DNA from: a virus | DNA: 64,000 nt | Direction: 5' to 3' (one strand) | Virus record (IMG/VR): IMGVR_UViG_3300042923_000569 | Coordinates: 293,874 to 357,873 of that record | Shown here: positions 5,518 to 35,894 of the stretch, one piece after another | Layout of the letters: each line of letters starts with the position of its first letter | How positions within the stretch are numbered: position 1 is the first letter of the stretch | The notes under the pieces: model-generated | The model's input: only the letters and a program-made list of their open reading frames with translations | What the model was told of the DNA's origin: nothing | The model's database searches: none | Made by a program: the position numbers and the translations under genes

Positions 5518-5640
5518 GGCGGCGAGTACTGGATTCGAACCAGTGACCAGGACATTAAAAGTGTATGAGTTATGGTTGCTGCGGGAATCCAATCAGGATT
5601 CCTTGGGTTCTACCTGCTCTACCAACTGAGCTAACTCGCC
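5518..5640 (-). tRNA. tRNA-Lys (TTT) interrupted by a 48-base insert in the anticodon stem
   Basis: Exon 1 (5640-5613) has acceptor GGCGAGT, D arm GCTC..GAGC and bases 26-28 (AGG). Exon 2 (5564-5521) starts ACA-CTTTTAA-TGTCC, followed by a perfect T arm and acceptor ACTCGCC; G73 and CCA are encoded (5518-5520). Joining the exons gives a perfect stem GGACA/TGTCC and loop CTTTTAA with anticodon TTT. The insert (5565-5612) lies between positions 28 and 29. It must be removed for a normal tRNA, or the gene is inactive. Confidence 0.8.
5565..5612 (-). other. 48-base insert within tRNA-Lys
   Basis: Contains hairpin GGAATCC-TGATT-GGATTCC followed by CGCAGCAACCATAACT. Same position and same plan as the inserts at 7864-7902 and 27293-27337. 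Too short for a group I or II intron. Confidence 0.7.
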
Positions 5641-6973: not shown

Positions 6974-7235
6974 TTACCACCAGATGATGACCATGACTAC
7001 GAGCAATAAACTGATCGACACTACAACCCATTTCTTTACCAATAGTGGCAGTAGTGAAATCTGCTGAACCTACTTCACGGAACGTTTGTGTATCGAATGT
7101 ATTATCAACATTCAATTCATAAACACAGTTCTCTTTTAATTCGATGCTGCCATTAGCTGGATGGTCTTTTGGTACAATATGACCAATTACAATACCACCT
7201 GGCATTACATGGAGCCGCATGACCATTGAGTTCAT
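6963..7235 (-). CDS. Hypothetical protein
   Basis: 90 residues from ATG 7235 (MNSMVMRLHVMPGG). A longer frame with TTG exists but would start inside a likely promoter (7270-7298). Beta-rich, ending in SHGHHLVVNGQ. Function unknown. Confidence 0.55.
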   Translation of the reverse strand: MNSMVMRLHVMPGGIVIGHIVPKDHPANGSIELKENCVYELNVDNTFDTQTFREVGSADFTTATIGKEMGCSVDQFIARSHGHHLVVNGQ

Positions 7236-7305: not shown

Positions 7306-7599
7306 TTATGAAAAATTTTCGTGATGCTTATAATTTAACGATGAATAGCACGATAGATCATACGCAATAAAATCATAAAATTTTGGTACATGTTCTTGTA
7401 GTTTACGCATCACTTTGAAATCAGCACGTGCTTCTTCAGGTGTGTAAACTTTTAGACCGCAATGAAAGTACTCGTCATGTTCGGACTTCCACTTTTCAAT
7501 TGCCATTTCATCAGTCATCAGATGATCATCAGTGTAGATAATCTCGGTTGTCCATCCTTCGCCAGTAGCAGCGTACTCATAGAATAAGAAACTTTTCAC
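7306..7599 (-). CDS. Hypothetical protein
   Basis: 97 residues beginning MKSFLFYEYAATGEGWTTE. Compact alpha/beta protein with a helix TPEEARADFKVMRKLQEHVP. It overlaps the upstream gene by 4 bases. No family recognised. Confidence 0.65.
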   Translation of the reverse strand: MKSFLFYEYAATGEGWTTEIIYTDDHLMTDEMAIEKWKSEHDEYFHCGLKVYTPEEARADFKVMRKLQEHVPKFYDFIAYDLSCYSSLNYKHHENFS

Positions 7600-7805
7600 T
7601 TATTAACCTCACTTATGTTTCTGATAATATTTTCACATCGCCCAAGTTTCTTTTTCAGCTTATTATGTTCCTTCAACAAATCATTGTATGTCTGAAGTTT
7701 AACAAATTCACCTTTTTTAGATTCCTGCATTTCTGCGTCATAAGAATATTCATCATCCCATAAATCAAAACTACGTTTTACTACTGGATTATATTTCTTT
7801 ACCAT
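7596..7805 (-). CDS. Small hypothetical protein with C-terminal coiled coil
   Basis: 69 residues. The second half (LQTYNDLLKEHNKLKKKLGR) is a short coiled coil. It begins 16 bases downstream of the interrupted tRNA-Glu gene and runs into the next gene by an ATGA-type overlap. Confidence 0.6.
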   Translation of the reverse strand: MVKKYNPVVKRSFDLWDDEYSYDAEMQESKKGEFVKLQTYNDLLKEHNKLKKKLGRCENIIRNISEVNK

Positions 7806-7820
7806 GATATTACCATTTGT

Positions 7821-7930
7821 GCAAGGTGCAGGATTCGAACCTGCGTTACGTTCTTGAAATGAAAGTTATGTATGCCGTAAGATTCCATCTGGAATCGCTT
7901 TTCGTGTCCTAACCACTAGACGAACCTTGC
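7821..7930 (-). tRNA. tRNA-Glu (TTC) interrupted by a 39-base insert in the anticodon stem
   Basis: Exon 1 (7930-7903): acceptor GCAAGGT, D arm GTCT..GGAC, then A-CG. Exon 2 (7863-7821): TTC-ATTTCAA-GAACG, T arm GCAGG-TTCGAAT-CCTGC, acceptor ACCTTGC. Joined, the stem is perfect (CGTTC/GAACG) and the anticodon is TTC. The insert sits between positions 28 and 29, exactly as in tRNA-Lys. CCA is not encoded. Confidence 0.8.
7864..7902 (-). other. 39-base insert within tRNA-Glu
   Basis: Contains hairpin GATTCC-AGAT-GGAATC followed by TTACGGCATACATAACT, matching the plan of the other tRNA inserts. Confidence 0.7.
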
Positions 7931-14225: not shown

Positions 14226-14300
14226 TGGTGCCCCTGACAGGATTCGAACCCGCGAATCACGGTTTTAGGGACCGCTGTTCTACCATAGAACGGCAGGGGC
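14226..14300 (-). tRNA. tRNA with CTA anticodon (amber suppressor candidate)
   Basis: Acceptor GCCCCTG/CAGGGGC, D arm GTTC..GAAC, anticodon stem GCGGT/ACCGT, T arm GCGGG-TTCGAAT-CCTGT, A73 and encoded CCA: a full cloverleaf. The 7-base loop is CCCTAAA, so positions 34-36 are CTA, complementary to UAG. Position 33 is C instead of the usual U. The arm resembles E. coli tRNA-Trp (CTCCAAA loop), but G1:C72 and A73 do not, so the amino acid is unknown. Confidence 0.8.
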
Positions 14301-18151: not shown

Positions 18152-18601
18152 TTAGTTATTATACCACGATATGTGGGTTACTGTCTTACTGTACTTACAC
18201 GCTGCAAGTACTTTTAATGTACTATTCATAACATACATTTCGTATTTTCCATTACTAGGAACACCGAAACCGTCAGATGGGATAAATGCTCCACATTCAA
18301 CCATGTCATGAAATTCTTCAACAGTATAAAGTACGCCACCGTAAATACCGAACTGAACGGGTCTTTTTGTACTGTTTATTAATGATTCCCAATCAATTTC
18401 AATTACAGCAGGAACTACAACAAAGCTACTGTTATAAATGAACGTCTGAGAACTTTCACTATATACGACAATTGAATTTGTTGCTGGATCGTGCCATGCA
18501 TTTTCAATCTTTTCATATAGTTCAGTGTCACCAACTTTAACCAGTACTTTACCAATTAAAGATTTACAGATGAAATCCTGAACATTGTCAAATTCAAACA
18601 T
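18152..18601 (-). CDS. Hypothetical protein
   Basis: 149 residues from ATG 18601, after AAGAGG. Beta-rich (KVLVKVGDTELYEKIEN, TNSIVVYSESSQTFIYNSS). Its stop overlaps the -10 of the promoter for the next operon. Directly downstream of the rRNA-like RNA. Confidence 0.7.
   Translation of the reverse strand: MFEFDNVQDFICKSLIGKVLVKVGDTELYEKIENAWHDPATNSIVVYSESSQTFIYNSSFVVVPAVIEIDWESLINSTKRPVQFGIYGGVLYTVEEFHDMVECGAFIPSDGFGVPSNGKYEMYVMNSTLKVLAACKYSKTVTHISWYNN
18158..18187 (-). promoter_or_regulatory. Promoter of the TAG-containing operon
   Basis: AAGACA (18187-18182), 18-base spacer ending TGG, TATAAT (18163-18158). The extended -10 is perfect. It lies just upstream of the TAAGGA site and ATG at 18140. 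Confidence 0.65.
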
Positions 18602-18888
18602 ATTAACCTCTTAATTAAAATGCCGTTAGTAGTGTGTTATTACACCAAAGTCTCTAAGGGTCTATATTAGCATCTACTACAGAAGTCGCACCACACGCCC
18701 TTCTTATAATATCAGATACACGCCGCCCGTGTGTACCAAACTAATATAACTGTATCCGGTCTTTTCTTCCCCTGAGCTTATACGTTTGGTACTGGTGGTG
18801 TGTTTCCCAAATACGGTTCGCTCTCGACACTCTTTAAATGATGGCTACCTTTAGGCCAACATCCTAATAACGGTCAAAACTTTAAATC
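18602..18888 (-). ncRNA. Structured RNA containing a mimic of the 23S rRNA GTPase-associated centre
   Basis: A 287-base gap between two genes. Bases 18866-18831 match E. coli 23S rRNA around 1054-1089 at 31 of 36 positions without gaps (as recalled). The match includes the blocks AGGATGTTGGC and AGCCATCATTTAAAGA; all five differences are transitions. Downstream, nested stems pair CACACCAC with GTGTGGTG and GTACCAAAC with GTTTGGTAC, and there is a hairpin GTGT-AATA-ACAC. No open frame. It is probably carried on the operon transcript or processed from it. Confidence 0.7.
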
Positions 18889-19104
18889 TTAACTACTATG
18901 TCCTACCTGTACTGGTACAACACCGAGTTCAACTAAATCAATTTTAAGATGTGGGAATTCATCTTCCCAATCTTCACCGTACAGGCGTACCATTTCATCA
19001 TAGGTATCCTGACGGTATTTAAACATAGTGGACAGAATCAGATCAGTACTCCGAGTATCATGTCCAGCCCAATATTTAGGTTTGTGCGTTGGTGCAATTT
19101 CCAT
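18889..19104 (-). CDS. Small hypothetical protein
   Basis: 71 residues (MEIAPTHKPKYWAGHDTRS), acidic helical middle. Two bases from the upstream stop. It precedes the structured RNA. Unknown. Confidence 0.65.
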   Translation of the reverse strand: MEIAPTHKPKYWAGHDTRSTDLILSTMFKYRQDTYDEMVRLYGEDWEDEFPHLKIDLVELGVVPVQVGHSS

Positions 19105-35783: not shown

Positions 35784-35813
35784 TTTTATTCTCTTTATCT
35801 GGAGGTAGATGTG

Positions 35814-35894
35814 GGATTCGAACCCACGAGCCGCTTTTAAGGGCGACTGCCTTCTTAGCAGGAAGGTGGTTTCATCCGTCTCACCCAATCTACC
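35814..35894 (-). tRNA. tRNA-Ser (GCT)
   Basis: Acceptor GGTAGAT/ATCTACC, Ser D arm, anticodon arm CCTTC-CTGCTAA-GAAGG (GCT), long variable arm, T arm GTGGG-TTCGAAT-CCCAC. CCA is not encoded (TCC follows). Confidence 0.9.

Follow-up and report, generated by a model that had tools for sequence, protein, structure and literature searches.

An RNA family of large bacterial viruses that copies the GTPase-associated centre of 23S rRNA and may capture host ribosomal protein uL11

Comparative analysis of phage genomes indicates that large bacterial viruses carry an undescribed RNA family, the core of which reproduces the GTPase-associated centre (GAC) of 23S rRNA together with its tertiary contacts. 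By this evidence, the RNA probably serves the virus to sequester L11 or associated components of host translation. The RNA that led to the family lies in a 64,000-nucleotide stretch (the window) at the end of a 357,873-base (358-kb) record from a phage related to Cronobacter phage GAP32; the relatives of the record are the Mimasvirus (GAP32, CBB, XbC2), Kaldavass and Eneladusvirus (BF) phages. A search of 5.39 million open-access papers found no prior description of this family and, as the original prediction had supposed, no phage example. No family in Rfam 15, including GOLLD and ROOL, scored above its gathering cut-off at these loci.

The segment first noticed, positions 18831-18866 on the minus strand (TAGGATGTTGGCCTAAAGGTAGCCATCATTTAAAGA), is identical to E. 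coli 23S rRNA at 31 of 36 ungapped positions when compared with the E. coli K-12 rrlB gene sequence. This agrees with the original prediction, except that the match falls at 1053-1088 instead of about 1054-1089; the A equivalent to A1067 is retained in the window, as had been stated. The proposed comparison with rRNA returned this site in the 23S GAC as the best match, 31/36 being the top 36-mer score of the minus strand of the window against 16S, 23S and 5S rRNA together, and the top score of the opposite strand being 26/36. By a simple binomial estimate, approximately 3e-5 matches this good would be expected by chance over all comparisons of the window with rRNA. A cmscan search aligned the same place with positions 1096-1145 of the LSU_rRNA_bacteria model (14.2 bits, E = 0.023), a score that is under the family cut-off because the match spans only part of a 2,925-position model. 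Contiguous large-subunit rRNA is absent from the locus, where the GAC is present alone and is split by an insert between the equivalents of 1090 and 1091.

The intergenic region that contains this segment (18602-18888) is 81-92% conserved over approximately 267 nt in the related Mimasvirus and Eneladusvirus phages. Its counterpart is unannotated in nearly all of them, one having a 93-nt hypothetical ORF inside it. Within it, the whole core occupies 251 nt of the minus strand (18623-18873) and is arranged as H42*-H43-insert-H44-H42*, H42* being a lengthened H42 of free sequence. On that strand, the 5' arm of H42 (18864-18873, CCGUUAUUAG), corresponding to the 1046-1055 side of 23S rRNA, pairs with the 3' arm (18623-18632, CUACUAACGG), and the window has A-U where relatives have G-C. 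H43 (23S 1057-1081, 18838-18862), with A1067 at 18852 and U1072 at 18847, is followed by the 1082-1090 strand (18829-18837, UUAAAGAGU), which contains the lone pair 1082-1086 and the conserved A1084, A1085 and A1088. A type A insert of 179 nt (18650-18828) then precedes H44 and its loop (23S 1091-1104, 18632-18645, GUGUAAUAACACAC), which supply U1092-A1099 of a base triple. In the alignment of relatives, this 3' part reads UUUGGYGUAAYARCACAC and is followed by a strand that pairs with sequence 5' of H43. The interval first proposed covers H43 and the 1082-1088 strand alone and leaves out H44. The RNA had also been imagined as a short decoy; it is in fact approximately 250 nt long, and relatives reach approximately 450 nt. 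A decoy function by itself would leave the conserved insert unexplained.

Secondary structure was assessed by covariation in an alignment of 28 members and 84 gap-free columns, which the insert could not disturb because the 5' and 3' parts were joined. Standard pairs filled 90.3% of the pair cells, and 14 of 21 pairs were altered on both sides, giving a covariation score of 0.570, as compared to 0.155 for shuffled alignments and at most 0.203 for slid pairings. Across the family, both sides had changed in 10 of 11 tested pairs of the lengthened H42, and the H43 pair 1058-1080 occurred as UA (16), AU (10), GC (10) and GU (1). The H44 hairpin, with a loop of the GUAAYA type whose tip drifts, is present 97-344 nt downstream in members. 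RNAalifold recovered the same core from 17 full type A RNAs, so that the structure prediction proposed at the outset, together with covariation, yields a conserved GAC core. For the window sequence by itself, the fold energy is unexceptional (z = -0.95), and the case therefore rests on comparison and not on folding energy.

The diagnostic feature of the GAC fold is tertiary. The 23S triple 1072:(1092-1099) reportedly varies as C:C-G or U:U-A, as described by Conn, Gutell and Draper. The search patterns accepted any combination of Y at 1072, Y at 1092 and R at 1099, and all 48 true members obey this rule, with C:C-G in 35 and U:U-A in 13; the sole formal exception among 49 RNAs is a tRNA stretch misassigned as H44 at a Lak megaphage locus. 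In a tree computed for 17 type A members without the columns of the triple, the state switches in concert at least four times. The window has U1072:U1092-A1099 and its close relatives have C:C-G; both the window and one further contig (L021) differ from the closely related XbC2 at all three positions. The lone pair 1082-1086 also varies, being standard in 34 of 37 RNAs and of three types (UA 27, AU 6, CG 1). Covariation of the triple and of this lone pair indicates that the GAC tertiary fold is conserved in the phage RNAs, so that the mimicry first suspected from a linear match is borne out by secondary structure and by the base triple. In host 23S rRNA, 47 copies from 21 genomes, retrieved with a pattern open to Y and R at these sites, showed only C:C-G at 1072/1092/1099. 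The phage RNAs are thus not recent copies of host rRNA and evolve independently under the constraint of the GAC fold.

The insert lies at one identical place, between 1090 and 1091, in all members, and its length ranges from 97 to 344 nt. Two types were distinguished: type A, which is that of the window (CGUAUAAGYUCAGGGGAAG ... GACCCUUAGAG), and type B (GAGUGGG ... CCCUUUGG). In the 17 full type A RNAs, RNAalifold found double changes in P3 (NNC/GNN), P4 and one long helix; it also predicted an AGGG/CCCU helix, which hardly varies. In the window, the 5' strand of P3 (GUC, 18826-18828, minus strand) pairs with its 3' strand (GAC, 18650-18652), and the AGGG of the conserved CUCAGGGGAAG (18770-18773) is predicted to pair with the CCCU of the conserved GACCCUUAGAG (18657-18660). 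At each of two P3 pairs, 8 of 17 sequences carry changes on both sides. A GGGCGAAGCC hairpin is conserved in many type A inserts (e.g., L051, L043, L055, L023 and L007), its place being taken by GGGCGGCG in Mimasvirus members. A second rRNA mimic within the insert, noticed by eye as a sarcin-ricin-like AAAAGACCGGA and a 16S-like ACACGGGCGGCGTGT, was rejected because no rRNA match of the window beat that of the GAC and because the second region consists of unrelated hairpins in relatives.

Members were collected by pattern scans of viral contigs and by nucleotide searches of phage records. Of 49 distinct RNAs extracted, 48 are clear members, nearly all of them in large-phage genomes: these include Acinetobacter ME3, Xanthomonas XaC1 and XacN1, Aeromonas 4_4572, Vibrio 2.275.O, and Pseudomonas pf16, Astolliot, Milchi and UNO-G1W1, plus many metagenomic phage contigs. 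Otagovirus phages carry two tandem copies, one with a type A and one with a type B insert. In the Otagoviruses Astolliot (L011) and Milchi (L012), two different GAC-mimic RNAs lie directly 5' of tRNA-Met (1640-2180 in both), the first copy having C1095 and a U:U-A triple and the second C:C-G. One scan of a genome collection with the type A pattern returned just two contigs, both from a single Neisseriaceae metagenome bin and possibly phage; as far as the collections were searched, the family appears to be restricted to phages. A bacterial or plasmid origin was rejected on the strength of that scan and because the plasmid matches are confined to the GAC segment and resemble ordinary 23S rRNA. 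The match in Paenibacillus Pd_22F is genuine contiguous 23S rRNA and not a member, and matches in short Listeria and Salmonella records are likewise true contiguous 23S rRNA. RNAs C and D of T4, whose sequences were inspected, do not contain the GAC sequence. In a Prevotella Lak megaphage (L013, 985-1400), a locus 5' of tRNA-Gly reads CATCATTTAAAGAGTTTCGAGA ... CCCTTAGAGAATTTG and has the H43 strand and CCCTTAGAG; an H44 loop was sought there and none was recognisable. This locus would be, at best, a divergent relative.

The RNA lies between a 71-aa gene (18889-19104, minus strand), the 3' end of which is just 5' of the RNA, and a 149-aa gene downstream (18152-18601, minus strand). The upstream coding sequence ends at the same place in relatives, and the downstream gene next to the RNA differs among them. 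In approximately 6 of 10 loci, a tRNA gene is found within 1.5 kb and on the same strand every time; about a third of the loci have a same-strand tRNA 14-34 nt from an end of the extracted core, and in UNO-G1W1 the RNA is embedded in an extensive array of tRNA genes. No tRNA adjoins it in the window or in the closest relatives. With a coding sequence that ends just upstream and a downstream gene that varies between phages, this arrangement speaks for a trans-acting RNA that would be processed from longer transcripts, rather than for a leader.

Several other RNA genes were seen during this analysis. At 5520-5640 of the window (minus strand), Rfam calls a 121-nt tRNA that ARAGORN misses; its acceptor and T arms are normal, and approximately 45 extra nucleotides, which separate the D arm from what may be a UUU (Lys) anticodon arm, suggest an insertion or intron. 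A tRNA at 14229-14300 (minus strand) is likewise called by Rfam and missed by ARAGORN, and the ARAGORN tRNA-Ser at 35800-35894 is missing from the Rfam list. A 307-kb phage contig (L018) has a tmRNA gene (7552-7919, plus strand, 86 bits) approximately 750 nt upstream of its GAC-mimic RNA, and a T4-sized contig rich in tRNA genes (L024) has a weak tmRNA-like match (7170-7223, minus strand) beside the GAC RNA.

The positions that are held and those that drift bear on the nature of the partner. Invariant or nearly so are the fold-building positions 1063-1064, 1071, 1073-1074, 1077, 1084-1085, 1087-1088, 1091, 1093-1094, 1098, 1100 and 1102. At the tip of H44, in positions 1095-1096, which contact factors, 5 of 36 RNAs carry C or G at 1095, and 6 of 36 carry G or U at 1096; host 23S rRNA has AA here in 47 of 47 copies (21 genomes), retrieved with a pattern that left the tip free. 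A1067 is replaced by G in 5 of 39 members, and UUUGG and A1101 are common to phage members and absent from E. coli 23S rRNA. The C-terminal domain of L11 reads the folded GAC core, and EF-G reads the tips; the map of L11 contact nucleotides used here follows known structures. An almost fixed core with drifting tips is what selection on the folded core would be expected to produce, and it favours a partner of the first kind over one of the second.

We consider the following mechanism, with uL11 binding as the most economical reading. The phage RNA would act in trans, its core folding as a bona fide copy of the GAC (H42-H43-H44 with the tertiary contacts), and would bind host ribosomal protein uL11; uL11 would then be sequestered or competed for, altering how the host ribosome reacts to factors and starvation; the phages concerned supply tRNAs as well. 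L11 is essential for the activation of RelA by starved ribosomes (PMC7058999), and A1067 stacks on the elbow of the A/R tRNA in RelA complexes (PMC5829649); for these reasons, an RNA that captured L11 could dampen stringent signalling or change the turnover of factors, and an effect on stalk function is also conceivable. To the reading in which a trans-acting GAC copy binds and titrates uL11 and so changes the response of the ribosome, we give an even chance. The wider proposal, that several large lytic phage groups capture uL11 in this way and reprogram ribosomes (stringent signalling and factor turnover) during infection, is a little more tentative. We infer production of the RNA, uL11 as its ligand, titration over recruitment, and an output in stringent signalling or factor handling. 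Titration of a ribosomal protein would require a very abundant RNA, and a pure decoy would have no need of a conserved insert of 97-344 nt. The G at 1067 in some members also speaks against this mechanism, as does the absence from the 358-kb record of L11, L12 and RelA/SpoT homologues that would point to the pathway.

The main rival to titration is an L11-containing RNP in which the GAC core would be a handle by which host uL11 is brought in as a structural cofactor, used and not depleted, and the insert would be the working part, docking, for example, on ribosomes, tRNAs or a phage protein. The single insertion site in all members, the conserved motifs and covarying helices of the type A insert, and the tandem Otagovirus copies with different inserts all fit this proposal; however, the inserts vary in size and type, no effector motif is common to A and B, and we regard it as rather unlikely. 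A decoy for translation factors (EF-G, IF2 or RF3) or for the tRNA-RelA complex, in place of L11, is improbable. The factor-contacting loops are present, A1067 stacks on the A/R tRNA elbow, and EF-G is said to bind oligoribonucleotides that mimic the thiostrepton domain (Munishkin and Wool, 1997), but the factor-facing tip (1095-1097) is the very part that drifts, A1067 is G in five members, and no sarcin-ricin loop was recognised in these RNAs.

More improbable still is a lure that would absorb a host toxin, nuclease or modifying enzyme attacking the GAC of 23S rRNA. Fold and sequence are both retained in large phages that supply tRNAs as well, and tRNAs are often targeted by defence systems, which would suit such a role; against it, no anti-phage effector directed at the GAC is known to us, and nothing in the sequence hints at one. 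Ribosomal-protein leaders such as the L10 leader mimic rRNA binding sites and capture the protein in cis on their own operon, and a start codon lies just downstream of the RNA in the window, as would be expected if L11 levels controlled the next phage gene. That gene differs among close relatives and is often a tRNA 14-34 nt away; the cis-leader reading is largely refuted by these changing downstream genes, and we give it very little credence. A chance match, contamination or a degenerate remnant of host 23S rRNA, to which the contiguous 23S rRNA among the database matches (Pd_22F, plasmid, and short Listeria and Salmonella records) might have pointed, is hardly credible: it is already refuted by covariation in 48 members, and the fixed insertion site, the UUUGG and A1101 absent from E. 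coli 23S rRNA, and the conserved synteny of the phage genomes also oppose it.

Compared with the 23S GAC (H42-H44, E. coli 1051-1108), the phage RNA shares H43, the 1082-1088 strand, the H44 loop sequence, the triple and the lone pair, but it is independent, carries 97-344 nt between 1090 and 1091, has a lengthened H42 of free sequence and a bulged A at 1101, and drifts at the tip. Ribosomal-protein leaders act on their own operons, whereas the genes downstream of this RNA vary and many copies lie among tRNAs. 6S RNA and CsrB, which sequester proteins, likewise mimic the nucleic acid that a host protein normally binds; here, the putative target is a ribosomal protein, and a virus carries the gene. 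T4 also has small stable RNAs within its tRNA cluster, RNAs C and D (species 1 and 2), but these lack the GAC sequence. We know of no viral RNA that reproduces a ribosomal functional centre, and none was found in the open-access literature. ROOL and GOLLD are large structured RNAs of phages and prophages, often near tRNA islands (PMC12286853). The GAC family resembles them in being a structured phage RNA often near tRNA genes, but is smaller and has no Rfam match to either, and ROOL and GOLLD are not known to mimic rRNA.

If the proposed role is correct, these phages would have evolved an RNA-based takeover of a ribosomal functional centre. With approximately fifty members, the family supplies natural variants, evolved away from the ribosome, of an RNA tertiary fold that is among the best studied. 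It also suggests what part of the sequence between phage tRNA genes that has no assignment may do. Finally, it points to a testable route by which phages may control host translation or the stringent response.
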